Shown: positions 4,262-39,471 of the stretch, one piece after another
Layout: each line of letters begins with the position of its first letter
Numbering within the stretch: the first letter of the stretch is position 1
Assembly: GCA_021794385.1 (NCBI GenBank)
Contig: JAJYQY010000139.1
Location: 1-39,471 of the forward strand
Origin: Pseudomonadota bacterium
GTDB taxonomy: Bacteria > Pseudomonadota > Gammaproteobacteria > Acidithiobacillales > Acidithiobacillaceae
Length of the DNA: 39,471 nt
Reading direction: 5' to 3'
Program-made: the position numbers and the translations under genes
Notes under the pieces: model-generated
Told to the model about the DNA's origin: nothing
Databases searched by the model: none
What the model saw: the letters and a program-made list of their open reading frames with translations, nothing else

Positions 4262-5305
4262 GTGCTGACGCCGGATCTGGCGCAGGCCCTGGGCTATCAG
4301 GGACGTATCCTGCAGCAGGTTTCGCGGACCTTTGCGTTGACCATACCATGCCTGCCCGAGGCCTTGCGCCATGCGGTGGGCAATGGCTATCTGCTTTGCC
4401 GTATTGCCGATACCATCGAGGACGATCCCGAACTCTCCTGGGAGGAAAAGGCACACTGGCAGTCGGTTTTTGTCGGGGTGGTGGCCGGACGGGCCGATGC
4501 CGCGGCTTTTGCCCGGGATTTTGCTGGCCGACTTTCTCCGCAGATGCCCGCCGCCGAGCACGACCTGATTCGCCACACCCCTCAGGTGCTGGCCCTTACC
4601 CATAGCTTCACGGCTTCCCAGCAGGCAGCGTTACTGCGCTGCGTCCGGATCATGGGCGAGGGTATGGCCGAGTTCCAGCGCAGCGCCTCCCGCGCCGGCC
4701 TGCCCGACATGGCTACCCTGGACCGCTATTGTTATGTGGTGGCAGGGGTAGTGGGAGAATTGCTCACCAGCCTCTTTGTGGAACAGGTTCCGAGCATGGC
4801 TGCATATGATGCGGAAATGCAAAGGCTGGCGGTATCTTTCGGTCAGGGTCTGCAAATGACCAATATCCTCAAGGATATCTGGGGTGACTGGGAACGCGGA
4901 GTGTCCTGGTTGCCGCGAGCGGTCTTTGACCGCCATGGCTGTCAATGGGAGCAACTCGCGCCGGGGACGCAGGACCCCGGTTTTCATGCCGGCATCCGCG
5001 AGCTCGTTGCCGTGGCCGGCCGCCACCTGGACGATGCCCTGCGCTATACTTTGCTGATTCCCCGTGAAGAAACGGGGATGCGCGACTTTTGCCTGTGGGC
5101 GATTGCCATGGCCGTGTTGACCTTGCGACGCATTGCCGAGCGTCCGGATTTCGTATCGGGGGATGAAGTGAAAATCAGCCGCCGTAGTGTGGGTAACGTA
5201 GTGCTCCTGTCACGGTTCATCCATCGTTCCGATTCCCTCCTGAAACTGAGTTTCCGGCTAGGGGTCAAACCGTTGGCGGCATTAACCAATGAGCCTAGCT
5301 TATGA
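4262..5305 (+). CDS. Squalene synthase (farnesyl-diphosphate farnesyltransferase type)
   Basis: Two Asp-rich motifs: RIADTIEDDPEL and QMTNILKDIWGDWERG; FCLWAIAMAVLTLRRI. Immediately upstream of shc. GTG at 4262 is the likely start. Confidence 0.88.
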   Translation: MLTPDLAQALGYQGRILQQVSRTFALTIPCLPEALRHAVGNGYLLCRIADTIEDDPELSWEEKAHWQSVFVGVVAGRADAAAFARDFAGRLSPQMPAAEHDLIRHTPQVLALTHSFTASQQAALLRCVRIMGEGMAEFQRSASRAGLPDMATLDRYCYVVAGVVGELLTSLFVEQVPSMAAYDAEMQRLAVSFGQGLQMTNILKDIWGDWERGVSWLPRAVFDRHGCQWEQLAPGTQDPGFHAGIRELVAVAGRHLDDALRYTLLIPREETGMRDFCLWAIAMAVLTLRRIAERPDFVSGDEVKISRRSVGNVVLLSRFIHRSDSLLKLSFRLGVKPLAALTNEPSL

Positions 5306-7236
5306 TGACCCTGCATCCACGACAACAACAAAAACGCATCACTGCCTTTCAGTCTCGTCTCGGTGCCGCCATAGCCGCGGCGCGGGGGGCATTGCTGGGG
5401 CTCCAGGCCGAGGATGGCCACTGGTGCTTCGAGTTCGAGGCCGACTGCACCATCCCTGCCGAATATATCCTCATGCAGCATTACATGGACGAGCGGGACT
5501 CGGTCCTGGAGCGCAAACTGGCGGTCTACCTGCGGTCCAAACAGGCGGATCATGGCGGCTGGCCCCTTTATTACGGCGGACATTTCGATATGAGTGCATC
5601 CGTCAAGGCCTATTATGCCCTCAAGCTGGCGGGTGACGACCCCGATGCGCCGCACATGCGCCGCGCCCGGGAGGCCATCCTCGCCCATGGCGGAGCCGAG
5701 CGGGCCAACGTCTTCACGCGCATCGCCCTCGCTCTCTTCGGCCAAGTCCCCTGGCGAGCGGTGCCCTTCATTCCCGTGGAAGTGATGCTGCTGCCGCGCT
5801 GGTTTCCCTTTCATATCGACAAGGTGGCCTCCTGGTCGCGGACTGTCATGGTGCCGCTGTTCATCCTTTGCAGTCTCAAGCCTCAGGCGAAAAATCCCCT
5901 GGGTATCGGTATCCGTGAAATATTCCGACGCCCGCCAGAAAGAGTAGACGATTATTTTACTCATTCTGCCCATGGCTGGGTGGCATGGTTCCTCCTGTTC
6001 CTGGATCGCTTGGGGCGCAGTGCGGAAGGGCTGATTCCCCAACGCTTGCGCCAGAAGGCCGTAAAAAAGGCCGAAAACTGGTTCATTGCCCGGCTCAATG
6101 GTACGGATGGCCTCAACGGCATCTTCCCGGCCATGGTCAATGCCCATGAGGCCCTGGCCTTGCTGGGTTACCCGCCCGAGCATCCCTATCGGCAACAGAC
6201 CGCTGCGGCCCTGCGCAAACTGGTGGTGGAGCGCGCCGAAGACGCCTATTGCCAGCCCTGCGTTTCGCCGGTCTGGGACACCTGTCTAGCCCTCCATGGC
6301 CTGCTGGAAAGCGATGGCGCGTTGGCCCCCGAGCTGGGGCGCAGCATCGACTGGCTCAAGGAACGGCAGATCGTGGACGAACCCGGCGACTGGCGGGTGC
6401 AGCGCCCCCACCTGCGCGGCGGTGGTTGGGCCTTCCAATACTGGAATCATTACTATCCGGATTTGGATGATACGGCGGCGGTGGCCTGGGCCATGGCGCG
6501 CGCCGGCCGGGAGGAAGACCGCCCCAGTCTCGAACTCGCGGCGGACTGGCTCGCGGGCATGCAGTCGCGTAACGGCGGCTTCGCTGCCTATGATGCCGAT
6601 AATACCCATTATTATCTCAACGAAATCCCCTTTGCCGATCACAAGGCCCTGCTGGATCCGCCTTCGGCCGACGTCACGGGTCGGGTGGTGGCTTTTCTCG
6701 GCATCTATGGCCGTGCCAAGGATCGTGAGGTCCTGCGGCGGGCTGTGGCCTACCTGCTGCGTGAACAGGAGGCCTCGGGGGCCTGGTTTGGTCGGTGGGG
6801 GACCAACTATATCTATGGCACCTGGTCGGTACTGATGGGTTTGGAGCAACTCGATGACCCCTCCTTGCAGCCTGCCATGGCGCGCGCCGCTGATTGGCTG
6901 CGCTCGGTGCAGCAAGCTGATGGCGGTTGGGGAGAAAGCAACGACTCCTACCCTGATTCGGGCCTGGCCGGGCTGGGCCAGCCCTCCACGGCAGCGCAGA
7001 CCGCCTGGGCCTGCCTCGCCCTGATGGCGACAGGGGATCGGGGCAGCGAGGCCCTCTGCCGTGGCATCCGCTGGCTGGAAGAGCAGCAGGGGGATGACGG
7101 GCGTTGGCAGGATCCCTATTTTAATGCGCCCGGCTTTCCGCGGGTATTTTACCTTACCTATCATGGTTACCGCCTTTATTTTCCGCTCTGGGCGCTGGCC
7201 CGCTACCGGCGTCTGGGGTCTGGCGCGTGTCGTTAG
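5302..7236 (+). CDS. shc: Squalene-hopene cyclase
   Basis: Catalytic DxDD (YPDLDDTAAVAWAM), multiple QW-type repeats (QQADGGWGES, QEASGAWFGRWG), 644 aa. Confidence 0.97.
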   Translation: MMTLHPRQQQKRITAFQSRLGAAIAAARGALLGLQAEDGHWCFEFEADCTIPAEYILMQHYMDERDSVLERKLAVYLRSKQADHGGWPLYYGGHFDMSASVKAYYALKLAGDDPDAPHMRRAREAILAHGGAERANVFTRIALALFGQVPWRAVPFIPVEVMLLPRWFPFHIDKVASWSRTVMVPLFILCSLKPQAKNPLGIGIREIFRRPPERVDDYFTHSAHGWVAWFLLFLDRLGRSAEGLIPQRLRQKAVKKAENWFIARLNGTDGLNGIFPAMVNAHEALALLGYPPEHPYRQQTAAALRKLVVERAEDAYCQPCVSPVWDTCLALHGLLESDGALAPELGRSIDWLKERQIVDEPGDWRVQRPHLRGGGWAFQYWNHYYPDLDDTAAVAWAMARAGREEDRPSLELAADWLAGMQSRNGGFAAYDADNTHYYLNEIPFADHKALLDPPSADVTGRVVAFLGIYGRAKDREVLRRAVAYLLREQEASGAWFGRWGTNYIYGTWSVLMGLEQLDDPSLQPAMARAADWLRSVQQADGGWGESNDSYPDSGLAGLGQPSTAAQTAWACLALMATGDRGSEALCRGIRWLEEQQGDDGRWQDPYFNAPGFPRVFYLTYHGYRLYFPLWALARYRRLGSGACR

Positions 7237-7925
7237 GGATCGTGGTAGCCCTGGCGGCAGAAGCGCAGGTATTGACGGGAACGGTGCCGCTGGCGGGGGA
7301 GGGGATCGACATTGCCCCGGGCCTGCGCTTGCGTCTGTGTGGCATGGGACCGGAGCCGGCGGCGCAAGCGGCGGCGGCGCTGCTGGCCGAGGGCGTCGGG
7401 GCCTTGCTGGCCTTTGGGACGGCGGGGGGCCTGGACCCCGCCCTGCGCCCCGGCATCCTGCTCTTGCCGGAGCGCGTGATTTATGCCGGTGGCGACTATG
7501 CCGTTGCCGCCTCGTGGCGTAGCCGGGTGGCCGCGCGGATCCACGGAGAGCTGGTCTCCGGCCCCCTGCTGACGGTGGCCAATGCCTGCGCCCAGTCCGG
7601 GCAGAAACGGGCGTTGCACGGGCGCAGCGGCGCTGTGGCGGTAGATATGGAAAGCGGCGCCGTCGCGGCCGTGGCCACGGCCGCCGGCAAACCTTTTTTG
7701 GTATTGCGGGCACTGGTGGATCCGGCGGAGCGCGACCTTCCCCTGAGTGCCATGGTAGCCGTCGATGCCTATGGCCATCTGCGCCTTTCCGCCCTGTTGG
7801 CGGCCCTGGCGCGGCGCCCCTGGGAGATCACCGCCCTGCTGCGCCTGGGCCGGGAGATGAGCGCGGCCCTGCGATCCCTGAGAGCTGCATGGCAAGATCT
7901 CGGCCCCTCGGGGATCGTGCCATGA
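7227..7925 (+). CDS. hpnG: Hopanoid-associated phosphorylase/nucleosidase HpnG
   Basis: PNP/MTA-nucleosidase-like (GTAGGLDPALRPG, VDMESGAVAAVA); directly downstream of shc with 10-nt overlap. Confidence 0.88.
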   Translation: MSLGIVVALAAEAQVLTGTVPLAGEGIDIAPGLRLRLCGMGPEPAAQAAAALLAEGVGALLAFGTAGGLDPALRPGILLLPERVIYAGGDYAVAASWRSRVAARIHGELVSGPLLTVANACAQSGQKRALHGRSGAVAVDMESGAVAAVATAAGKPFLVLRALVDPAERDLPLSAMVAVDAYGHLRLSALLAALARRPWEITALLRLGREMSAALRSLRAAWQDLGPSGIVP

Positions 7926-8911
7926 AGGCACTATTGACCGGCGCGTCGGGCTTTGTCGGGGGGGCGGTCCTGCGCCGGCTTCTGGCGGAGGGGGTGGAAG
8001 TGCGCGTCCTCGCCCGCCGCGATGGTGATGCCGCCAACTGGCAGGGCCTGGAGGTAGAAGTGGTGCATGGCGATCTGCGTAATGGCGAAAGCCTGGGGCA
8101 GGCAGTGGCCGGATGTCAGGGGCTTTTCCATGTGGCTGCCGATTATCGCCTTTGGGTCCCCGATCCCGCTCCCATGTATGCGGCCAATGTCGGGGGTACG
8201 GAGCGCCTCATGCGCGCTGCCCTGGAGGCAGGAGTGGAGCGCATCGTTTATACCAGCAGTGTGGCGGTCCTGGGCTTTTATGCAGACGGGCGGATTGCCG
8301 ACGAAAATGCCCCCTCCAGCCTCGATACCATGATCGGCCATTACAAGCGCTCCAAGTTCCTTGCCGAAGAGGTGGTCCGTAATCTCTGCGCGACCGAAGG
8401 GTTGCCGGCCGTGATCGTCAACCCCTCTACCCCCGTCGGCCCCGCCGACCGCAAGCCGACCCCCACAGGCCGCATGGTGCGGGACGCCGCGGCCGGGCGG
8501 ATGCCGGCCTACATCGATACGGGTCTCAATGTGGTCCATGTGGATGACGTGGCCACGGGGCACTGGCAGGCCTTTGGGCAAGGGGTGGTGGGCGAACGCT
8601 ACATTCTTGGTGGAGACAATCTGCCATTGGGGGCCATGCTGACCCGCATTGCCGGCCTCACCGGTCACCGGTCGCCGCTGTTGCGTCTGCCCCGTCGCGC
8701 CCTCTATCCCCTGGCCTGGGGGGCAGAATCCTGGGTGCGCCTGCGCGGGCGGGGTACACCCCTGGTGACCAGGGACGAACTGCGCATGGCGGCCCACAAG
8801 ATGTACTTCTCCTCGGAGAAGGCCGAAAACTGCCTGGGCTACCGCCATCGCCCCGCCGAAGAGGCCCTGCGGGACGCCGTGCAATGGTTCCGGGAGCATC
8901 ATTATCTGTGA
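7922..8911 (+). CDS. hpnA: Hopanoid-associated sugar epimerase HpnA (extended SDR)
   Basis: MKALLTGASGFVGGAVLRRLL, YTSSVAVLG, YKRSKFLAEE; ATGA overlap with hpnG. Confidence 0.92.
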   Translation: MKALLTGASGFVGGAVLRRLLAEGVEVRVLARRDGDAANWQGLEVEVVHGDLRNGESLGQAVAGCQGLFHVAADYRLWVPDPAPMYAANVGGTERLMRAALEAGVERIVYTSSVAVLGFYADGRIADENAPSSLDTMIGHYKRSKFLAEEVVRNLCATEGLPAVIVNPSTPVGPADRKPTPTGRMVRDAAAGRMPAYIDTGLNVVHVDDVATGHWQAFGQGVVGERYILGGDNLPLGAMLTRIAGLTGHRSPLLRLPRRALYPLAWGAESWVRLRGRGTPLVTRDELRMAAHKMYFSSEKAENCLGYRHRPAEEALRDAVQWFREHHYL

Positions 8912-10095
8912 TGGCACTGATCCCCTGGTGGCATTGGCTGGCTTGGTCCCTCTGCGCCGCTGCCTTGGCTTATCTGGCCTTCGCCCTGTGGGTACTGACC
9001 CGCTGGCGGCCACGGCTGGTGGACAGCCATCTCTCCGGCCAGCGCTCTACCTCCCCCCTGCAAGCGACGGATAAAAGCTGGCCGGCCGTGAGCCTCCTCA
9101 AGCCCTTGCGTGGTCTGGAGGCCGGACTCTACGAAAACCTGCGTACCTTCTGCTCTCAGGATTACCCCTGCTATGAGATCGTCTTCGGTGTCCAAGACCC
9201 GGCGGACCCGGCCATCGCGGTAGTGGAGCGCCTGCGCCGGGAATACCCCGATCTCCCCATTGCCCTAAGCATCAGCGCCGCAAAGGTGGGCAGCAACCCC
9301 AAGGTCAACAACCTCGCCGGGATTTTTGCTTTGTGCCGCCACGATTATCTGGTCATCAGCGACGCCGACATTCGCGTGGGCGGCGGTTACCTGCGTGAGC
9401 TTTGCCGGCCTTTGCCAGATGACGGGGTAGGGGTGGTGACCTGCCTCTACCGGGGCATGGCCGTCGCCGGCTTCTGGTCGCGTATCCTGGCGGCCCAGAT
9501 CAATGAGTCTTTCCTGCCCTCGGTCCTCGTCGCCGAGCGCCTGGGGCCCACCATTTTCTGCGGCGGGGCGACCATGGCCCTGCGCCGCAGCACCCTGGAA
9601 GGGATTGGCGGATGGGCCGTCCTGGCAAAGCACCTTGCCGATGATTATCAACTGGGTGCCCTGAGCCGTGCCCAGGGCAAACGCACCGTCCTGTCTGCCT
9701 ATGTGGTGGATACCCTGGTCCATGAGCCTGATTTTGCGGCATTTTATCAGCATGCCCTGCGTTGGTCGCGGACCACGCGGGCGGTGCAGCCCGCCGGCCA
9801 CACGCTGGCCTTTATCAGCTATCCCTTGCCCGTCGTAGCCCTGCTCGCCGCTTGGGCCGGTCGACCCGGGCTGATTTTTTTGGTGGTGGTTCTGGGCTTG
9901 CGCCTCGTGTACCATTACGCGATCTTGAAAAAACTGCGGATCACCAATTCCGAGGGGGTGCTCGATGCCTTCCTCGCCGACGGTATGGGCCTGCTAGTAT
10001 GGTTTCATGCCCTTTTTGCCAGACGGATCCGCTGGCGGGGAGACCGCTTCGCCATCGACCCCAAGGGGCGTATGGGCGGGCACGACGGAGCATAG
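8911..10095 (+). CDS. hpnI: Hopanoid glycosyltransferase HpnI
   Basis: GT2 glucosyltransferase-type motifs (SLLKPLRGLEAGLYENL, YLVISDADIRVG, GGATMALRRSTLE, HALRWSRTTR). Confidence 0.9.
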   Translation: MALIPWWHWLAWSLCAAALAYLAFALWVLTRWRPRLVDSHLSGQRSTSPLQATDKSWPAVSLLKPLRGLEAGLYENLRTFCSQDYPCYEIVFGVQDPADPAIAVVERLRREYPDLPIALSISAAKVGSNPKVNNLAGIFALCRHDYLVISDADIRVGGGYLRELCRPLPDDGVGVVTCLYRGMAVAGFWSRILAAQINESFLPSVLVAERLGPTIFCGGATMALRRSTLEGIGGWAVLAKHLADDYQLGALSRAQGKRTVLSAYVVDTLVHEPDFAAFYQHALRWSRTTRAVQPAGHTLAFISYPLPVVALLAAWAGRPGLIFLVVVLGLRLVYHYAILKKLRITNSEGVLDAFLADGMGLLVWFHALFARRIRWRGDRFAIDPKGRMGGHDGA

Positions 10096-26644: not shown

Positions 26645-26693
26645 TGCACCAACATGAAGCGCATATTTTCCGGATTTGCACTAAATCAGTGCA
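26645..26693 (+). promoter_or_regulatory. Two candidate NtrC-type enhancer sites, 32 bp apart
   Basis: Site 1 TGCACCAACATGAAGCGCA (26645, conserved left half only); site 2 TGCACTAAATCAGTGCA (26677-26693, perfect TGCACT-N5-AGTGCA palindrome). NtrC consensus is about TGCACY-N5-RGTGCA. Confidence 0.65.
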
Positions 26694-26753
26694 GTCTTTA
26701 TAAGAAAATGTATAGCCGTAGACTTAAAACAGCAATTTTTAACAGCTACAAGA

Positions 26754-26768
26754 TGGCACACATATTGC
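26754..26768 (+). promoter_or_regulatory. Candidate sigma-54 promoter of the guanidine operon
   Basis: TGGCAC-ACATA-TTGC matches TGGCAC-N5-TTGC with correct -24/-12 spacing. Site 2 is centred about 95 bp upstream of the predicted start near 26780. Confidence 0.7.
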
Positions 26769-26831
26769 CTAATATACAGCACATGATAGGGAGTCGCTTA
26801 TAGAGAACGTGCGAATCATACAAATCGATTT

Positions 26832-26938
26832 GGTAACGGGTTCTAGGGTTCCGGCCGGCAAGTCGCAGGCGTCTGGTCCAAGAGAATTCGGCCTCCAGAA
26901 ATGGGGGTTCACGGAGGGATAAAAGCCCGGGAGATCAC
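26832..26938 (+). promoter_or_regulatory. Guanidine-I (ykkC-class) riboswitch aptamer
   Basis: ACGGGTTCTAGGGTTCCG...GGTCCAAGAGA...CACGGAGGGATAAAAGCCCGGGAGAT match ykkC conserved blocks; P1 CGGGTT/AAGCCCG. Downstream genes fit guanidine. Confidence 0.92.
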
Positions 26939-26960
26939 TGGTGATCTTTCGGGCTTATTT
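26923..26960 (+). terminator. Riboswitch expression-platform intrinsic terminator
   Basis: AAGCCCGGGAGATCAC-tg-GTGATCTTTCGGGCTT (16 bp with two G.U pairs) followed by ATTTTATT. Its 5' arm contains the aptamer P1 3' strand. Confidence 0.88.
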
Positions 26961-26984
26961 TATTGACTCAACGGAGGACGTAAC

Positions 26985-27965
26985 ATGGAAGCATGGAAAA
27001 AAGCCGTTTTTGGTCTAGCGCTCGCCGGAGCTGGACAATCCATGATGATGACAAACAGCTTCGCGACAATCACTCTCGGAGTCAGTGATTGGCCAGGATG
27101 GGTAGCATGGTATGTTGCTGAACATAACGGATATTTGAAAAAGTACCACGCAGACGTAAAGCTGGTATGGTTTTCAAGTTATACTACTTCTGTGGAAGCC
27201 TTATCCGCTGGAAAACTAGATGCCAACTGTCAAGCGCTGATCGACACATTGGCGCCAATTGAAAAAGGCGTACCTATCAAAGTAGTGCTGGTGACCGACA
27301 ATTCTGCCGGAAACGATGCCCTTATGGTCAATAATTCGATAACCAAGTTTGACCAGTTAAAGGGAAAAACCATCGCCGTACGCATGGACTCGATAGAACA
27401 ATATCTGGATGAGACAGCTTTAACGAAAAATGGCATCTCACCCGCTTCTGTCCACTTTATTAATATGTCAACAGGAAATGCCGCCGCGGCGCTGATTACC
27501 GGGCGTGTACCAGCGGCTGGCGTATGGAATCCGTGGATACAGAGAATTGAAGCCAGGAAAGCCGGACACCCAATCTTCACGAGTGCCGAAGCGCCGGGTG
27601 TTATTCCTGATATTGTAGCCGCGAGAGATAGTGTTATTGCTGCTCAACCGCAGCAGTTTGTTAACTTAGCCAAAGCTTGGTATGCGACAGTAGCATTTAT
27701 AAAAGAACATCCCAAACAGGCGGCCGCAATTATGGCTCCGCATGTCGACCTGAAGCCGGCAGAGTATGCCACTTCCTTGGCGGGGACCCGCCTTTTCGAC
27801 GCAAAGCTCAATCTTGAAGCGATGAAGCCCGGCGCATCCCCAGTGTCCCTCTACAACAGCACAAGAGACACTTCGGTATTCCTTAAACGTGTCGGAGCAA
27901 TAAAATCCGAACCGCTACCAAGTTCTTTTATAGACCAGACGTTTGCTGTTGAGGCCGCTAAGTGA
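26985..27965 (+). CDS. NitT/TauT-type ABC transporter substrate-binding protein (putative guanidine uptake)
   Basis: Signal peptide; LGVSDWPGWVAWYVAEHNGYLKKYHADVKLVWF and VEALSAGKLDANCQALIDTLAP; first gene behind the riboswitch. Confidence 0.85.
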   Translation: MEAWKKAVFGLALAGAGQSMMMTNSFATITLGVSDWPGWVAWYVAEHNGYLKKYHADVKLVWFSSYTTSVEALSAGKLDANCQALIDTLAPIEKGVPIKVVLVTDNSAGNDALMVNNSITKFDQLKGKTIAVRMDSIEQYLDETALTKNGISPASVHFINMSTGNAAAALITGRVPAAGVWNPWIQRIEARKAGHPIFTSAEAPGVIPDIVAARDSVIAAQPQQFVNLAKAWYATVAFIKEHPKQAAAIMAPHVDLKPAEYATSLAGTRLFDAKLNLEAMKPGASPVSLYNSTRDTSVFLKRVGAIKSEPLPSSFIDQTFAVEAAK

Positions 27966-28819
27966 GCAGCAGCGCAAAACCCGTACCGCTGGGGCGAGAT
28001 CAGATCTCGCCCCAGCGCCCGCCCCAGAACGCGAGGCGCAGAGCACAGTATCTAAAAATACGATCGGCCATCCCCCGGAAGGCTTATCTGATATTGTCGT
28101 TGCTTGGCTTTATAGTACCATTAGCAGCTTGGCAATGGTTAAGCTCCGCCGATATGGTGAGCAGTTTATTTTTACCATCACCACACGACGTTTGGAGATC
28201 CGCCATCGACTGGTACGCCGGCAATCTAGGCACCGATATCTACATTAGCACCTACCGTGTGGTTAGCGGTTTTCTTATGGCTGCTTTAATCGGTGTTCCA
28301 CTAGGAATATACATCGGCACATTTAAGTCGGTAGAGGCGGTATTCCAGCCTATCAATGATTTTGTACGCTACATGCCCGCCTCGGCGTTCATTCCCCTTG
28401 TGATGTTATGGATAGGCATCGGTGAATCGTCCAAGATCTCTATTATATTTATCGGTGTAGTGTTCCAAATTGTGGTGATGGTTGCTGACGCTGTGAGAAA
28501 TATACCAGAACGTTACATTGAAGCCGCATACACTCTGGGTGCAAAAAAGGGGGAGGTTATAAACCATGTTGTATGGCGGGGCGCCCTTCCCGACATCTTT
28601 AATATATTGAGAGTCAACATGGGCTGGGCATGGACGTACCTGGTCATTGCGGAGATGGTTGCGGCAGATAGGGGGCTTGGATTTGCCATCCTTCAGGCGC
28701 AGCGCTTCATGGATACACCAAAAATATTTGTTGGAATATTTATCATTGGCGTTCTCGGCCTGGTTTTTGATTTATCATTTCGCGTTGCCCATCGCGTCTT
28801 GTTTCCATGGAGCAGATAG
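27962..28819 (+). CDS. ABC transporter permease
   Basis: SsuC/TauC-like; EAAYTLGAKKGEVINHVVWRGALPDIFNILRVNMGWAWTYLVIAEM. Confidence 0.9.
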   Translation: MSSSAKPVPLGRDQISPQRPPQNARRRAQYLKIRSAIPRKAYLILSLLGFIVPLAAWQWLSSADMVSSLFLPSPHDVWRSAIDWYAGNLGTDIYISTYRVVSGFLMAALIGVPLGIYIGTFKSVEAVFQPINDFVRYMPASAFIPLVMLWIGIGESSKISIIFIGVVFQIVVMVADAVRNIPERYIEAAYTLGAKKGEVINHVVWRGALPDIFNILRVNMGWAWTYLVIAEMVAADRGLGFAILQAQRFMDTPKIFVGIFIIGVLGLVFDLSFRVAHRVLFPWSR

Positions 28820-29655
28820 TTATGAATAAAGAAGGGGTCGCAATTAAGTCAGTGAGTAAGTTATACCCCCAGCGAGATGGAAGTCGACGACGCGTGCTGA
28901 ACGATATAGATCTGGAAGTCGCGCAAGGTGAACGGGTGATGTTAGTCGGTGCATCTGGTTGCGGAAAGTCGACTCTGCTGAGATTGATAGCAGGGTTGGA
29001 ATTACCCAGCGAAGGTACGATTGATGTGGCTGGCACCTTAGTCACGGGGCCGGGCGTAAATCGTGGTGTTGTGTTTCAACAGTCAACATTGTTCCCATGG
29101 CTTACGGTCTGGCAGAATGTGACATTCTCCAGGCAATTGCGAGTCAATATAAATGTGGATGACTCCCAGGTAGCGCAGGCGGTTTATCGTAGTAACGCAC
29201 TAATGAATGTCATGGGCATGGATCATGTGCGTGATGCTTATCCGAATCAATTAAGCGGCGGCATGCAACAGCGCGCCAATATTGCACGGGCTCTGGTTTC
29301 CAGTCCGGCGGTATTATTAATGGATGAGCCATTTGGCGCCCTTGATGCGCAGACGCGGGAAACCATGCATGACCTCGTCCTGCACCTGTTCAACGCGGAA
29401 ATGACCACGGTGGTATTTGTGACGCACGATGTTGAGGAAGCGGTATACCTTGGAGATAAAGTGGTTGTTCTTGGGTCAAACCCAGGCCATATTGATAGTA
29501 TTTATGACATACCATTTGGGCGGGAACGCTCGCATGAGATAAAGTTTATTCCCGGATTCGTATCCATAAGAAATGAAATCCTCAATAGAATAAGGGCAAC
29601 AACTGAGGTTCGGACGAATCAGGATGTCTTAAGAAAAATGACCGAGTTTAAATAA
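28807..29655 (+). CDS. ABC transporter ATP-binding protein
   Basis: Walker A GASGCGKST, signature LSGGMQQR, Walker B VLLMDEPFGALD. Confidence 0.93.
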   Translation: MEQIVMNKEGVAIKSVSKLYPQRDGSRRRVLNDIDLEVAQGERVMLVGASGCGKSTLLRLIAGLELPSEGTIDVAGTLVTGPGVNRGVVFQQSTLFPWLTVWQNVTFSRQLRVNINVDDSQVAQAVYRSNALMNVMGMDHVRDAYPNQLSGGMQQRANIARALVSSPAVLLMDEPFGALDAQTRETMHDLVLHLFNAEMTTVVFVTHDVEEAVYLGDKVVVLGSNPGHIDSIYDIPFGRERSHEIKFIPGFVSIRNEILNRIRATTEVRTNQDVLRKMTEFK

Positions 29656-29795: not shown

Positions 29796-30533
29796 ATGAT
29801 CGAGCATGAAATCGTGGAGCATCAGGACCATGATATATGGACCGAAGAGATTCCTGGCGGTGCTCATACCTCCTTTATCATGAGAAGGCATACCGTTCTT
29901 CGAATTATGGATATGGAAGGGGCGGCCAATATTGTCGCTTTATTCTATAATCACGATGAAAAACTGGAGCGGTACAACATGGCGGACACATTGAAGGCGC
30001 AGCATACGGCTTATCTTACCCAAGGGCGCGTATGCTACTCGGATATGGGTCGAATACTCTGCTCCATCATTGCCGATACCTGCGGCTGGCACGATACCAT
30101 TTGTGGCATGACCGATGCCACCCAGGTGCGCCAGAAATATGGCGACAAAACGTACCAGGATGCGCATAATGCCATGCATCGTAATGCGCGCGATAGCGTT
30201 CTCATTGAGCTTGGTAAGTGGGGTTGCGGGAAGCGGGATATTGTGCCGAATGTCAACTTTTTTAGTAAAGTTACTGCTGACAACTCCGGGGATTTGCATT
30301 TTATTTCGAATCATTCCAAGCCAGGCGACTTTGTTGAGTTGAGATTTGAAATGAATACTCTAGTCGTATTGGCAGCATGTCAGCACCCGTTGGATCCTAA
30401 TCCGAATTATGCACCAAAACCAATAAGGATAACGGCTCGGCATACACCAGGTGCTGACCGATACGATTTCTGCCGGAAGTCTCACCCGGAAAATGAACGG
30501 GGTTTTTATAACACCGAGAACCTGTTCCGCTGA
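29796..30533 (+). CDS. DUF1989 urea-carboxylase-associated protein; carboxyguanidine deiminase subunit
   Basis: DUF1989-type [20 protein letters not shown]...[24 protein letters not shown]; paralogous to the next gene. Confidence 0.85.
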
Positions 30534-30547
30534 GAGGAAGGGAAACC

Positions 30548-31186
30548 ATGGCTATTGTAGAAAGCGAACTTGATCTGATAGCTGCCATTTATGATAAGGT
30601 ACTGCCTGCCGGGGAATCCTGGCTACATGAGATAAAGGAAGGCCAGGTTTTCCGCATCCTGGACCTGGAAGGCAATCAGGCGGTCGATACACTTTTTTAT
30701 AACGCACATGATCCTAGCGAACGTTACAGCGCAGTGGATACCATTCGCGCCCAAAATAATCTGTATCTCACCGCGGGCTCACGCCTGCTATCCAGCGAGG
30801 GGAATACGCTGATGACGATCATCGCCGATACATGCGGTCGGCATGACACCATAGGCGGCGCATGTTCTGCGGAGAGCAATAGCGTGCGCTATGGTATCGA
30901 CAAGAAGTTTATGCATAATTGTCGGGACAGTTTCTTGCATGCACTTGGCCATTGTGCCTGTCATATGGATAAGCGTGAGCTAATTAGCAATGTCAATTTC
31001 TTCATGAACGTACCGGTTACGGAGGATGGAGCCCTCACTTTTGCCGATGGCATCTCAGGATCCGGTAAGTATGTGGAAATGCGGGCAGAAATGGACGTCA
31101 TCGTACTCATTTCCAATTGTCCGCAACTCAATAATCCGTGCAATGCCTACAATCCGACACCAGTGCGACTGCTCATATGGAATTAA
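30548..31186 (+). CDS. DUF1989 urea-carboxylase-associated protein; second carboxyguanidine deiminase subunit
   Basis: [52 protein letters not shown]. Confidence 0.85.
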
Positions 31187-31255
31187 ACTCCGATAGCCAG
31201 GGGGACGACCCCCTCGGCTCAACACGCTGCAGGACGACCTGCCGTACTTCTTATC

Positions 31256-34200
31256 ATGTTTGAAAAAATTCTTATCGCCAATCGTGGCGCCATCGCCTGC
31301 CGCATCATCCGGACGCTCAAGCGCATGGGGATCCGCACGGTTGCCGTGTACTCCGAGGCAGATCGCGTCAGCGCGCATGTGCTGCTGGCCGATGAGTCCG
31401 TGTGTATCGGCCCTGCACCTGCGGCACAGAGCTATTTACGCAGCGAGGCCATCCTTACCGCAGCGCGTGCGAGCGGCGCCCAGGCCATCCATCCCGGCTA
31501 CGGTTTTCTGTCGGAAAACCCGGATTTCGCCGCCGCCGTGGAAGCTGCGGGTATGGCCTTCATCGGCCCCACACCCGAGCAGATGCGCGCCTTCGGCCGC
31601 AAGCACACGGCGCGCGAACTCGCTCAGCAAAACGGCGTGCCGCTGCTGCCGGGCTCGGGACTACTGGAGGATGTCGGCCATGCCATGGCCGAGGCGCGAC
31701 GCATCGGTTTTCCGGTCATGCTCAAAAGCACTGCCGGCGGCGGTGGCATCGGCATGCAACTGATCTGGAGTGAGGATGGCTTGCAGGACGCCTACGCACG
31801 GGTTGATCGCCTGGCGCGCGCCAACTTCAAGGAAGCAGGGATTTATCTGGAAAAATACGTCCAGGCCGCGCGCCACATCGAAGTGCAAATTTTCGGCGAT
31901 GGGCAGGGCCAGGTGGTGCATCTGGGTGAGCGCGACTGCTCGGTACAGCGCCGTAACCAGAAGGTAATCGAGGAAACCCCCGCACCCAATCTACCCGACG
32001 CGGTGCGTCATGCGCTGTGCGACACGGCCGTACGCCTGATGCAAAGCGTCCGCTACCGCAATGCGGGAACGGTGGAATTCGTGCTTGACGCCGATACTGG
32101 TGCATTCTACTTCCTTGAGGTCAACACCCGCTTGCAGGTCGAGCATGGGGTGAGCGAGGAAGTGAGCGGCGTCGATTTGGTCGAATGGATGGTGCGCCAG
32201 GCTGCCGGCGAATCGCCCATTGCCGGCTATTTGCACGCGCCGCACGGCCACAGCATCCAGGTGCGCCTCTACGCCGAAGATCCAGGCAAAGACTTCCAGC
32301 CCGCCGCTGGCGTGTTGAGCGAAGTGGTGTTTCCTCCGGATGCCCGGGTGGAAACCTGGGTCGAGGCCGGCAGCGAAGTCAGCGCGTATTACGACCCCAT
32401 GCTCGCCAAGCTCATCGTGCATGGCCGCGACCGTGCCGATGCGCTGGCGCGCATACAGGCGGCGCTCGACGCCACGCGTATTTACGGCTTCGAGACCAAT
32501 CTCGCCTACCTGCGCCAGATTGTCGCCGATGTGACCTTCACGCAAGGCCGGCAGACTACGCGCTATCTCAACGCCCTGGCCTACCATGCGTCCACGCTGG
32601 ATGTGATTGAACCGGGCGTGCAGACCAGCCTGCAGGACTGGCCGGGGCGGCTGGGTTATTGGGATGTCGGCGTGCCACCCTCCGGGCCCATGGATGCGCT
32701 CGCCCATCGCGCCGCTAACCGCCTGCTCAGCAACCCACCGGAGGCGGTGACCCTGGAAATCACCCTGAGCGGACCTACCCTCAAATTCAACACCGACAGC
32801 ATCATCGCCATTACCGGCGCCGATCTGCCGGTCACACTCGATGGCCAGCCATTGACGTTGTGGTGCAGCCATGGGGTAGCTGCTGGCAGTGTGCTGAAGT
32901 TCGGTAGCCTGAGCGGCGCTGGCTGCCGCGCCTATTTGGCAGTGGCGGGCGGCTTCGACACGCCGCTTTATCTGGGCAGTCGCGCCACCTTCACCCTCGG
33001 CCAATTCGGCGGTCACGCCGGACGCACTCTGCGCACCGGCGATGTGCTGCATCTGGGTGCCAATCCACGATCTCGGTCTGGACGACGCGTGGCGCCACAG
33101 GCGCTGCCGACTTATACCGAGCATTGGGAAATCGCCGTGTGCTACGGGCCCCACGGCGCGCCGGATTTTTTTACCGATGCCGATGTGGCGATGTTCTTCG
33201 CCACCAATTGGGAGGTGCACTACAATTCCAACCGCACCGGAGTGCGGCTCATTGGCCCGCGGCCGCACTGGGCGCGCAGCGACGGCGGCGAGGCCGGCTT
33301 GCACCCTTCGAACATTCACGACAACGCCTACGCCATCGGCGCGGTGGACTTTACCGGTGACATGCCGATCCTGCTCGGCCCGGATGGCCCCAGCTTGGGT
33401 GGCTTCGTCTGTCCTGCGGTGATTGTCGCCGCTGACCTCTGGAAGATAGGCCAACTGCGGCCGGGCAACACCCTCCGTTTCGTACCCGTTAGCCTGGAGG
33501 AAGCCGCCCGACTGGAATGTGCGCAAGACGCAGCCCTCGAAAGCCTGTCCACTTTTTTGGACCCGCCGCTGGCCGCAGCACCGGCATTGGAATCACCCAT
33601 CGTCGCCCGATGCGACCCGCCGCAACATCCAGTGGGGGTGGCCTATCGCGTAGCGGGCGATAAATACCTGCTGGTTGAATACGGGCCGCTGGTATTGGAT
33701 CTGGAATTGCGCTTTCGCGTCCATGCGCTGATGGAAAACCTGCATAGGCGCAGCTTACCCGGCATCGTCGACCTTACTCCAGGCATCAGATCGTTACAAA
33801 TCCATTATGACAACCGCATCTTATCGCTGGTAGAACTGCTCGATGCGCTACGCCGCACCGAAGATGAATTGCCCGCTGCGGACTTGCTGGAAGTACCCAC
33901 GCGCATAGTGCATTTACCGCTGTCCTGGGACGACCCCGCCACCCGGCTGGCCATCGAGAAATATATGGCCGGCGTGCGCAAGGACGCCCCCTGGTGCCCC
34001 TCCAACATCGAGTTCATCCGCCGTATCAACGGCCTGGACAGTATTGAGGATGTGCGCCGTATCGTGTTCGACGCCAGCTATCTGGTGCTGGGGCTGGGCG
34101 ATGTGTACCTAGGGGCGCCGGTGGCTACGCCACTGGACCCGCGTCACCGCCTGGTCACCACCAAGTACAATCCGGCGCGCACCTGGACCCCGGAGAATGC

Positions 34201-34855
34201 CGTGGGTATCGGCGGCGCTTATATGTGTGTTTACGGTATGGAGGGCCCCGGCGGCTATCAGTTCGTTGGCCGCACCCTGCAGATGTGGAACCGCTGGCGA
34301 CAGACTGCGCAATTTACCGATGGCAAGCCCTGGCTGCTGCGTTTTTTCGACCAGATCCGATTCTTCCCCGTCAGCACGGCAGAACTGGAAGCCATCCGCA
34401 CCGACTTCGTGCATGGTCACTACCACTTGGATATCCGCGAAGACACCTTTCGCCTGGCCGACTATCGCCGTTTTCTGGCCGATGAGGCTGACGATATTGC
34501 CGTATTTCGTGATCGCCAGCGTCAGGCCTTCGCCGAGGAGCGCGAGCGCTGGGCCCTATCGGGCCAAGCCAACTGGATCAGCGACGCAACCGTGGCTGAG
34601 GCCGCAAGCGACACGGAACTGGATCTGCCCGCTGGTGCACGCTCAGTGGCTAGTCCCATCGCTGGCAGCGTCTGGAAGATTCTGGTCAAAGCTGGTGAAC
34701 GGGTACAGGCCAAAGATCCGCTGATTATTTTAGAGTCCATGAAAATGGAGATGACTGTCGAGGCGCCTAGCTCTGGTGTCATTCATCGTCTGTTCTGCCG
34801 CGAAGGCGAAGCGGTTAGCGCTGGACAGAACGTATTGATACTAATGGAGAACTGA
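31256..34855 (+). CDS. Guanidine/urea carboxylase (biotin-dependent, 1199 aa)
   Basis: Biotin carboxylase N-terminus (KILIANRGAIACRIIRTLKRMGI), KipI/KipA-like carboxyltransferase, BCCP motif ILESMKMEM. Riboswitch and DUF1989 context favour guanidine as substrate. Confidence 0.92.
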   Translation: MFEKILIANRGAIACRIIRTLKRMGIRTVAVYSEADRVSAHVLLADESVCIGPAPAAQSYLRSEAILTAARASGAQAIHPGYGFLSENPDFAAAVEAAGMAFIGPTPEQMRAFGRKHTARELAQQNGVPLLPGSGLLEDVGHAMAEARRIGFPVMLKSTAGGGGIGMQLIWSEDGLQDAYARVDRLARANFKEAGIYLEKYVQAARHIEVQIFGDGQGQVVHLGERDCSVQRRNQKVIEETPAPNLPDAVRHALCDTAVRLMQSVRYRNAGTVEFVLDADTGAFYFLEVNTRLQVEHGVSEEVSGVDLVEWMVRQAAGESPIAGYLHAPHGHSIQVRLYAEDPGKDFQPAAGVLSEVVFPPDARVETWVEAGSEVSAYYDPMLAKLIVHGRDRADALARIQAALDATRIYGFETNLAYLRQIVADVTFTQGRQTTRYLNALAYHASTLDVIEPGVQTSLQDWPGRLGYWDVGVPPSGPMDALAHRAANRLLSNPPEAVTLEITLSGPTLKFNTDSIIAITGADLPVTLDGQPLTLWCSHGVAAGSVLKFGSLSGAGCRAYLAVAGGFDTPLYLGSRATFTLGQFGGHAGRTLRTGDVLHLGANPRSRSGRRVAPQALPTYTEHWEIAVCYGPHGAPDFFTDADVAMFFATNWEVHYNSNRTGVRLIGPRPHWARSDGGEAGLHPSNIHDNAYAIGAVDFTGDMPILLGPDGPSLGGFVCPAVIVAADLWKIGQLRPGNTLRFVPVSLEEAARLECAQDAALESLSTFLDPPLAAAPALESPIVARCDPPQHPVGVAYRVAGDKYLLVEYGPLVLDLELRFRVHALMENLHRRSLPGIVDLTPGIRSLQIHYDNRILSLVELLDALRRTEDELPAADLLEVPTRIVHLPLSWDDPATRLAIEKYMAGVRKDAPWCPSNIEFIRRINGLDSIEDVRRIVFDASYLVLGLGDVYLGAPVATPLDPRHRLVTTKYNPARTWTPENAVGIGGAYMCVYGMEGPGGYQFVGRTLQMWNRWRQTAQFTDGKPWLLRFFDQIRFFPVSTAELEAIRTDFVHGHYHLDIREDTFRLADYRRFLADEADDIAVFRDRQRQAFAEERERWALSGQANWISDATVAEAASDTELDLPAGARSVASPIAGSVWKILVKAGERVQAKDPLIILESMKMEMTVEAPSSGVIHRLFCREGEAVSAGQNVLILMEN

Positions 34856-36652
34856 ATGGCTACCAGCCTATATATACACAACTTGCTTTCAGCCTACCGT
34901 TCTGGGCAGATCACCCCAACGATCTTGGTGGAGCAGTTGCTTGAGCGTTCCGCCCGCCACCCCGATCACGCGATCTGGATTACCCCGCCGCAGCGTGAGC
35001 GTCTGCTCGAACGCGCGCGGGAGTTGGAGGGCCGAGACATGGAGGGACTGCCGCTGTACGGCGTGCCTTTCGCCATCAAGGACAACATCGATCTGGCCGG
35101 CGTGCCCACCACCTGCGCCTGTCCGGGCTTCGCCTATACGCCCAAGACCTCCGCTACGGTGGTGCAGAAGTTGCTGGACGCCGGCGCCATCGCCATGGGC
35201 AAGACCAATCTCGATCAGTTCGCCACCGGCTTGAACGGCACCCGCTCGCCCTATGGCGCCTGCCGCAACGCCTTCGACCCGGACTATATCTCCGGTGGAT
35301 CGAGTGCCGGATCGGCGGTGGCGGTAGCGCTGGGTCTGGCGAGTTTTTCATTGGGCACCGATACCGCCGGTTCCGGTCGCGTACCGGCGGCTTTCAATAA
35401 TCTGGTTGGACTCAAAGCAAGCTGCGGTCTGCTGTCTACCACCGGCGTGGTGCCAGCCTGCCGTTCCCTGGACAGCGTGTCGATCTTCGCCCTGAGTGCG
35501 CAGGACGCCCAGCGGGTCTTTGCGGCGGTGCTGGGCGAGGACCAAAGCGATCCGTATTCGCGCACCCCCCAGCCCCATGGCTTTGACTTTGGCTACGCGC
35601 CGCGCTTTCGCTTCGGCGTGCCGGCAGACAAGGACCTCAACTTCTTCGGCGACCACGAATATGCGCAGTTGTTCGACGCCGCGGTGGCACGGCTCGAATC
35701 GCTGGGCGGCGAGCGCGTCGAACTCGACTTCGCCCCCTTCCTGGAAACCGCTCGTCTGCTTTACGGCGGCCCCTGGGTAGCCGAACGTTACCAGGCCATC
35801 CGCAACTTTATTGATGCCAATCCCGAGGCACTGTTCCCGGTCACCCGCGACATCACCTTGGGGGGAGCCAAGCCGCTGGCTGCAGACGCCTTCGCCGCGC
35901 TCTACCGGCTACGGGAGCTCAAGCGCGAGTGCGACTGCATCTGGCCGCAGGTGGATTGCGTCATTACCCCTACAGCCGGCACCATCTTTACCCGCGCCGA
36001 ACTGCTGGCCGAACCCGTGGCCAGAAATACCGACCTGGGCTACTACACCAATTTCATGAATCTGCTGGATTACGCTGCGGTAGCGGTGCCGGCCGGATTC
36101 CGTGCTGACGGCCTGCCATTCGGCGTCACCCTGTTTGCCCCAGCCCATCAGGACGTACCGCTGCTGCATCTGGCCGAGCATTGGCAGCTTGCAGACCCTG
36201 CACCCATCGGCGCTATGGAAACCATGCCGCCACCAGTGGAAACCGTGCCCGCCGCAGTGCCCAGCGGGCAGGTACGGGTCGCGGTGGTCGGTGCCCACCT
36301 CAGCGGGCTAGCCCTTAATCAGCAGCTCACTGCACGCGCCGCCCGGCTGCTAAGCGAGACCTGCACCGCCCCCTGCTACCGCCTTTACGCCCTGCCGGAC
36401 GGCAATCGTCCCGGGCTGATTCGTGTCGCCAATGGCGGTGCGGCGATCGACTGCGAGCTGTGGGAACTGCCAGCCGCAGCCTTTGGATCCTTTGTCGCCG
36501 GCATCCCCGCACCACTGGGCATTGGTACCGTCGAATTGGCCGACGGCAGCGCGGTCAGTGGTTTCATATGCGAAGCTATCGGCATCGCCAACGCCAGCGA
36601 CATCACCAGATTCGGCGGCTGGCGTACCTATTTGCGTTCGCTGCAGGTCTGA
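34856..36652 (+). CDS. atzF: Allophanate hydrolase
   Basis: Amidase signature (SGGSSAGSAVAVALGLASFSLGTDTAGSGRVPAAFNN) plus C-terminal allophanate-hydrolase domain; follows the carboxylase directly. Confidence 0.92.
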   Translation: MATSLYIHNLLSAYRSGQITPTILVEQLLERSARHPDHAIWITPPQRERLLERARELEGRDMEGLPLYGVPFAIKDNIDLAGVPTTCACPGFAYTPKTSATVVQKLLDAGAIAMGKTNLDQFATGLNGTRSPYGACRNAFDPDYISGGSSAGSAVAVALGLASFSLGTDTAGSGRVPAAFNNLVGLKASCGLLSTTGVVPACRSLDSVSIFALSAQDAQRVFAAVLGEDQSDPYSRTPQPHGFDFGYAPRFRFGVPADKDLNFFGDHEYAQLFDAAVARLESLGGERVELDFAPFLETARLLYGGPWVAERYQAIRNFIDANPEALFPVTRDITLGGAKPLAADAFAALYRLRELKRECDCIWPQVDCVITPTAGTIFTRAELLAEPVARNTDLGYYTNFMNLLDYAAVAVPAGFRADGLPFGVTLFAPAHQDVPLLHLAEHWQLADPAPIGAMETMPPPVETVPAAVPSGQVRVAVVGAHLSGLALNQQLTARAARLLSETCTAPCYRLYALPDGNRPGLIRVANGGAAIDCELWELPAAAFGSFVAGIPAPLGIGTVELADGSAVSGFICEAIGIANASDITRFGGWRTYLRSLQV

Positions 36653-38268: not shown

Positions 38269-39351
38269 CTATACCGCAGTCAAAAAGGAAACGCCAATCG
38301 CACCGTAGAAACCATCAGCCTTGTTTGGCCCCGAGGTCACCACGCCATAGTCATCGCTAAGGATGCGCTTCACTCGGTGTTTATGGAATCCGGAAAGCAA
38401 GCATGACATCGGAATGACCTGCTCGCCATCGTCCCCATATAGTTCATGATGCAAAGATGGCAGGCGGTACCAAGGCACCGTGGGTTTTTCATGATGGGCG
38501 TTGTGGTATGAAAAGTTGAGTAGCAGCAGATTAAGCAGTGGATGACGCACCGAAACCAGATTAGAATAGGTATTGTTCTGCTCGTAGGCACGATCACGTA
38601 TTTTGTTGTCAGGAATAGCGCCCGCTGCCAAAATGGCGAAAGCGTCGTAGGTATGCTGGTAAGCGTCGGCGAAGCGCAGTGCAGTGATGAAAATCACATA
38701 GGCGACGAAATACAGCGCCAGCGCCTTCCACGATACCCACGCCAGCGTGGAAAAAAACAACAGGCGCAATACCAGCACCGCAATGATGCGCTTTCTGGCT
38801 GCCGCGTGCTCCAGCTCGATGAAGGGCAGCAGCATCACATAAATCCGCATGATAAATTCTACTGCCGGGATGTAGGCCCACTCCAGCACCAGCACCAGGT
38901 TACGCAGCCATGAGGGACCGGCGCGCAGAAAGGACTTGTAGTCGAAAGTGATCACATCGGCGCGATCACGGTGGTGCCGCATATGCTTGTGGCGCAGCTC
39001 GGCGAACGAGGCATAGCAGCTTCCGTTTAGCCACCCCATGATCACACCACAACGATGATTGGCGGCGCTGCTCCCGAATATTGTTCCATGAGCGACTTCA
39101 TGGATGAAATAAGCCGAATAGATCAGGGCGTGGGCAAGCAACAGCACCCCCAAGACGTTCAGCCACCAAGGTGCGACCATTAGCAAACCTGTCCCTACAC
39201 CATACCCAGCGAATGTATAGCCGAGAGCCAGAGTGTTGGGTATGGCGCCATCTCCATGGCGAAATAACCGATTAGCCATCTTTATCGACTCCGAAGTGTT
39301 ATTCGTGAGCTCGGCGGCTTTGCTAACGGTAAAATTAGCAACGACAGTCAA
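38269..39351 (-). CDS. Membrane fatty acid desaturase-type di-iron protein
   Basis: His boxes HEVAH, HKHMRHH, HNAHH with paired hydrophobic segments. Start is TTG 39351 or ATG 39279. Confidence 0.88.
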   Translation of the reverse strand: MTVVANFTVSKAAELTNNTSESIKMANRLFRHGDGAIPNTLALGYTFAGYGVGTGLLMVAPWWLNVLGVLLLAHALIYSAYFIHEVAHGTIFGSSAANHRCGVIMGWLNGSCYASFAELRHKHMRHHRDRADVITFDYKSFLRAGPSWLRNLVLVLEWAYIPAVEFIMRIYVMLLPFIELEHAAARKRIIAVLVLRLLFFSTLAWVSWKALALYFVAYVIFITALRFADAYQHTYDAFAILAAGAIPDNKIRDRAYEQNNTYSNLVSVRHPLLNLLLLNFSYHNAHHEKPTVPWYRLPSLHHELYGDDGEQVIPMSCLLSGFHKHRVKRILSDDYGVVTSGPNKADGFYGAIGVSFLTAV

Positions 39352-39355
39352 TTGC

Positions 39356-39471
39356 TCAGTATTTAGCTAAACCCTTGACGAACTCATCATCAAATGTCAA
39401 TGGCGTCGCCGGAATGTGGCTGATATCTTTATCCTTGAGCTGGATTTTGCTTATGATATTTCCGCTAGTGT
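39356..39471 (-). CDS. C-terminal fragment of an unidentified CDS continuing past the window
   Basis: Open minus-strand frame TSGNIISKIQLKDKDISHIPATPLTFDDEFVKGLAKY*. Too short to assign a family. Confidence 0.45.
   Translation of the reverse strand, partial: TSGNIISKIQLKDKDISHIPATPLTFDDEFVKGLAKY

Follow-up and report, generated by a model that had tools for sequence, protein, structure and literature searches.

A predicted NtrC and sigma-54 promoter precedes the guanidine-I riboswitch of a guanidine carboxylase operon in an Acidithiobacillaceae genome and is conserved in gammaproteobacteria

The window studied here, the whole stretch of 39,471 nucleotides that was analysed, comes from a 1.41 Mb, 72%-complete MAG of the Acidithiobacillaceae, and a search with the binding protein gave Acidithiobacillus sulfuriphilus as the nearest named relative (94% identity). 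The window carries the gene set of a guanidine carboxylase operon, i.e., carboxylase, UAAP1 and UAAP2, allophanate hydrolase and an ABC importer (Table 1), the first reading frame of which starts at an ATG at 26985 behind GGAGG at 26973-26977. In an alignment to 5i8i, Asp698 of the carboxylase falls on Asn1330 of the Kluyveromyces lactis urea amidolyase, which we take to be a substrate-specificity position. A 2025 review states that Asp at this position marks guanidine carboxylases and Asn marks urea carboxylases (PMC12186494). Among the carboxylase fragments matched in riboswitch loci, the window's included, 28/29 had Asp and 1/29 had Asn. A guanidine-II riboswitch lies directly 5' of the carboxylase, as it does in relatives, and may form a third layer of control.

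Table 1. Features of the guanidine operon and its upstream region, in window coordinates
Feature	Position	Strand	Basis
Weak NtrC half-site 1, TGCACCAACATGAAGCG	26645..26661	+	7/10 consensus positions, 32 bp before the strong site
NtrC enhancer site 2 (predicted), TGCACTAAATCAGTGCA	26677..26693	.	Exact palindrome TGCAC-N7-GTGCA
Sigma-54 (-24/-12) element, TGGCACACATATTGC	26754..26768	+	TGGCAC-ACATA-TTGC; sequence match, kept in relatives
5' leader RNA (predicted), ~205 nt	26780..26984	+	Inferred from the -12 position
Guanidine-I (ykkC subtype 1) riboswitch aptamer	26832..26935	+	RF00442, 86.3 bits, gathering score 63
Intrinsic terminator, ON-switch expression platform (predicted)	26923..26956	+	Hairpin; 5' arm overlaps aptamer 3' end
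SsuA-type ABC substrate-binding protein, putative guanidine importer	26985..27965	+	TIGR01728 over cut-off
ABC transporter permease	27962..28819	+	PF00528
ABC transporter ATPase	28807..29655	+	PF00005
UAAP1 (carboxyguanidine deiminase subunit type)	29796..30533	+	TIGR03425 over cut-off
UAAP2 (carboxyguanidine deiminase subunit type)	30548..31186	+	TIGR03424 over cut-off
Guanidine-II (mini-ykkC) riboswitch	31197..31242	+	RF01068, 34.7 bits, gathering score 32
Guanidine (urea-type) carboxylase	31256..34855	+	TIGR02712, 1878 bits; DFTGD motif
Allophanate hydrolase	34856..36652	+	TIGR02713 over cut-off

Elsewhere in the window, the minus strand of 38269-39471 holds the last part of another ABC substrate-binding protein and then a gene of the fatty-acid-desaturase family (PF00487), in convergent orientation to the main operon. 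Because the homologous desaturase of A. ferrianus (76% identity) belongs to an operon (L065b) that has a guanidine-I aptamer, an exact NtrC palindrome and a sigma-54 element at its own head, this segment is probably a second guanidine operon with its promoter off the contig. Desaturase-family homologues were also seen beside guanidine-I or guanidine-II riboswitches at L103, L123, L127, L142, L151, L158, L192, L200 and L206, and the gene perhaps serves the oxidation of substituted guanidines, if MgdH is a guide (PMC12508155). At L102, L112, L115 and L120, guanidine-I aptamers with sigma-54 elements precede GdmH-type guanidinase-like genes (~397 aa), some of which diverge from an importer operon that has a separate aptamer. 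At window positions 5302-10095, genes for a squalene-hopene cyclase, an NAD-dependent epimerase and a glycosyltransferase follow one another, as would fit a hopanoid cluster.

A sequence-only reading of this DNA had called a ykkC aptamer with a terminator ahead of the operon, and both were recovered, the aptamer scoring above the RF00442 gathering score. The terminator and the aptamer share 13 nt (26923-26935), as in a mutually exclusive expression platform, and the hairpin region at 26918-26965 has a folding energy of -23.9 kcal/mol (z -6.7). Minimum free energy folding of the aptamer alone was uninformative (z ~0), and the aptamer's identification therefore rests on the covariance model. Upstream, the sigma-54 element that had been proposed, TGGCAC-N5-TTGC, is present with its GG and GC doublets at -24 and -12 in the fixed spacing, and counting from the -12 GC gives a predicted transcription start near 26780. 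The exact consensus is not rare in the host genome, with 6 matches vs 4 for the reversed pattern, so its count was rejected as stand-alone evidence.

Two NtrC sites 32 bp apart had also been proposed, the second of them a perfect palindrome. The spacing and the palindrome at 26677-26693 held up on inspection; the first site had been overstated. Its left half, TGCAC at 26645-26649, is good, its right half is wrong in the N7 register, and GCGCA is obtained there only with N9, so that it was rejected as a full NtrC site. It may still matter, because in a congener (L048) a weak site, TGCACAAAACTAGGGCG at -188, again lies 32 bp before an exact one, TGCACCAGCTCGGTGCA at -156. The exact palindrome occurs only three times in the 1.41 Mb host genome, the other two copies preceding glnA and a circularly permuted ATP-grasp gene. 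These three loci are also the only ones in the genome in which an NtrC palindrome is followed by a sigma-54 element 45-75 nt away (3 vs 0 in the control). The ATP-grasp locus (G000:C71:1934-2032, L033) places a CP_ATPgrasp_2 gene behind its promoter, hinting at a role for this gene in nitrogen metabolism. A transglutaminase-like family neighbours circularly permuted ATP-grasp genes. Transglutaminase-like genes are NtrC-dependent in Burkholderia cenocepacia (PMC5491218).

The sequence-only reading had itself predicted that orthologous operons would share these upstream motifs, and this was borne out in Acidithiobacillaceae and, for the sigma-54 element, across families. In Acidithiobacillaceae, every locus carrying the riboswitch has a sigma-54 element, and in most the NtrC palindrome is exact or 9/10; MAGs of Thiomonas and other proteobacteria keep the sigma-54 element, with less regular NtrC sites. 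For a wider sample, guanidine-I aptamers were taken, unfocused, from genomes drawn evenly across the class and phylum, with Gammaproteobacteria used in the GTDB sense, betas included, and a sigma-54 element was called at a score of at least 12/14 no more than 120 nt upstream of the aptamer. In this sample, which includes related genomes, 67/73 gammaproteobacterial aptamers had the element (47/52 genomes, 29/33 families), and it was absent from the other 6/73. With nine wrong spacers (1-4 or 6-10) only 1-12 of the 73 scored as well, and matches were near zero on reverse strands and in coding controls. Among alphaproteobacterial aptamers, 9/18 had the element and 9/18 did not; three of the nine exceptions are aptamers that score weakly, under the gathering score, and precede EamA-like transporters. 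Counted from the first base of the aptamer, the predicted starts range from -73 to +6; in the model, P1 opens at base 7, and thus no predicted start would cut the aptamer. The pattern spans carboxylase operons and guanidinase-type (GdmH-like) genes, the latter judged from sequence.

The NtrC half-sites emerged from a count that was blind to any target motif. In the 165-nt stretches that precede the element in 95 regions, the most enriched hexamers were GCACCA/TGGTGC (90 seen vs 9.7 expected), followed by TGCACC/GGTGCA (68 seen vs 9.6 expected), and N7 palindromes of at least 8/10 were found in 37/66 vs 4-20 at other spacings. Outside Acidithiobacillaceae the sites are mostly 8-9/10, with some loci lacking a clear palindrome, and the enrichment could partly reflect related enhancer-binding proteins.

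RpoN co-occurs with the riboswitch and promoter. The host MAG encodes RpoN (G000:C19:50910-52298, 507 bits), and 70/75 riboswitch-bearing genomes have RpoN over the cut-off. Two alphaproteobacterial genomes, G615 and G715, lack the sigma-54 element and also lack RpoN over the cut-off. In a further genome (G392), the guanidine-I leader L119 has no sigma-54 element and rpoN is split over two frames, which may reflect either decay or an error in sequencing.

Published data on related genes bear on the regulator. In nitrogen-limited B. cenocepacia H111, mutation of ntrC reduced urea carboxylase transcription 6.0-fold and left adjoining ABC periplasmic protein and UAAP-type genes at zero reads (PMC5491218). 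On another B. cenocepacia replicon, which is not the H111 locus, we found the same kind of operon as in the window, behind guanidine-I aptamers with sigma-54 elements. A sigma-54 regulon prediction includes COG3665 genes, many of them annotated 'urea carboxylase' (PMC12316311). Both studies resemble the present case in placing urea-carboxylase-type genes under NtrC or a predicted sigma-54 promoter; the latter does not mention guanidine, the former does not use the word riboswitch, and neither draws the link.

An NtrC/sigma-54 promoter and a guanidine-I riboswitch in series would make the operon an AND gate for the use of guanidine as a nitrogen source, and we give this reading a probability of about 0.86. 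It is unlikely, though the most probable of the alternatives, that the sigma-54 promoter answers to another enhancer-binding protein, perhaps one responsive to guanidine or stress, so that transcription would follow a signal other than nitrogen status. No NtrC scoring over the family cut-off was found in the window's own 72%-complete MAG, which has many related sigma-54 activators, and the palindromes are degenerate in several lineages; the NtrC family model matches every related activator as well, and a congener has a bona fide NtrC over the cut-off at 744.6 bits. Against another activator stand the exact palindrome that the operon shares with glnA of the same genome, the rank of the half-sites among the enriched hexamers and the NtrC dependence of the equivalent B. 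cenocepacia genes.

The chance that the operon is meant for guanidine detoxification, with nitrogen control incidental, appears very small. Exporters are often under guanidine riboswitch control (PMC12186494), and their leaders allow a comparison: in genomes of the same class, none of eight guanidine-II exporter leaders had a sigma-54 element, the exporters being small (104-106 aa), identified by sequence reading, and one leader having only a short upstream stretch. Set against 67/73, this gives p ~1e-7 in a Fisher test on a sample with related genomes. The operon is predicted from its genes to import guanidine and release ammonia, and its carboxylase has the guanidine-type Asp. The earlier proposal that guanidine is a nitrogen source here is thus supported by the gene set, by the Asp and by exporter leaders free of sigma-54 elements. 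Equally improbable is an ordinary sigma-70 promoter with the riboswitch alone deciding and the upstream motifs as chance or relics, since the low specificity of the exact consensus in the host genome, which would suit it, is outweighed by spacing-specific conservation with starts outside the aptamer, and the sole sigma-70-like candidate, at 9/12, was no better than shuffles and was rejected.

For the NtrC and riboswitch AND gate, the order of the parts suggests the following sequence of events. Nitrogen limitation would lead to phosphorylation of NtrC, which, bound at about -95 (with the weak second site at about -127), would activate sigma-54 polymerase, so that leader RNA would be made only under nitrogen limitation. 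The terminator would then halt RNA polymerase unless guanidine stabilised the guanidine-I aptamer, and the guanidine-II switch before the carboxylase would apply a further guanidine check, probably at translation. NtrC binding, the start, termination control and the logic as a whole are thus predictions from the arrangement of elements, and the expected outcome is that guanidine is used as a nitrogen source when nitrogen limitation and guanidine coincide.

The single modules of this arrangement are known. As here, glnA-type NtrC/sigma-54 promoters have palindromic enhancer sites before a -24/-12 element; in the host's own glnA an exact NtrC site lies 68 bp before the element and a weaker one 30 bp further up. 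Unlike that type, the transcript here is predicted to begin with a ligand-gated terminator, and therefore NtrC activation alone should not suffice. Vreelandella boliviensis (PMC12508155) and enterobacteria (PMC12186494) have the same gene set with guanidine-I at its head and guanidine-II before the carboxylase, and their operon is induced on guanidine as nitrogen source. Those papers credit the two riboswitches for the induction, and a sigma-54/NtrC promoter layer was not found in them. In cyanobacterial gifB, too, a single transcript is controlled in series by a nitrogen regulator of transcription and a riboswitch (PMC6316151); that system differs in that NtcA represses, the ligand of the glutamine riboswitch reports a surplus of nitrogen, and sigma-54 and guanidine play no part. 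In Bacillus subtilis, a TnrA box in the ykkC promoter region had no observed effect (PMC4475385). Our search found no literature joining a guanidine riboswitch with NtrC or RpoN; since it excluded subscription papers and preprints, novelty is provisional, and the fixed combination of these modules across a class appears unreported in searchable papers.

Judged by its recurrence in the sampled genomes, promoter plus riboswitch is the rule for gammaproteobacterial guanidine-I assimilation operons and is also seen at about half of the sampled alphaproteobacterial aptamers. Somewhat less securely, it seems probable that gammaproteobacterial guanidine-I transcripts of both the carboxylase and guanidinase pathways are, ancestrally and almost universally, started under nitrogen limitation by sigma-54, in most cases with NtrC, the riboswitch being the second input of an AND gate for nitrogen scavenging and not a toxicity alarm. 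These results touch the open question of whether riboswitch-controlled guanidine genes are for feeding or detoxification, and a sigma-54/NtrC promoter before assimilation-type and not exporter-type riboswitches offers an independent signal, read from sequence, for telling these apart. Riboswitch reporters driven by a foreign promoter would capture only half of the logic, and guanidine use may go unseen in ammonium-rich media. Given the same promoter type before nearly all sampled gammaproteobacterial guanidine-I switches, these switches would, as the near-constancy suggests, serve mainly feeding and less detoxification.
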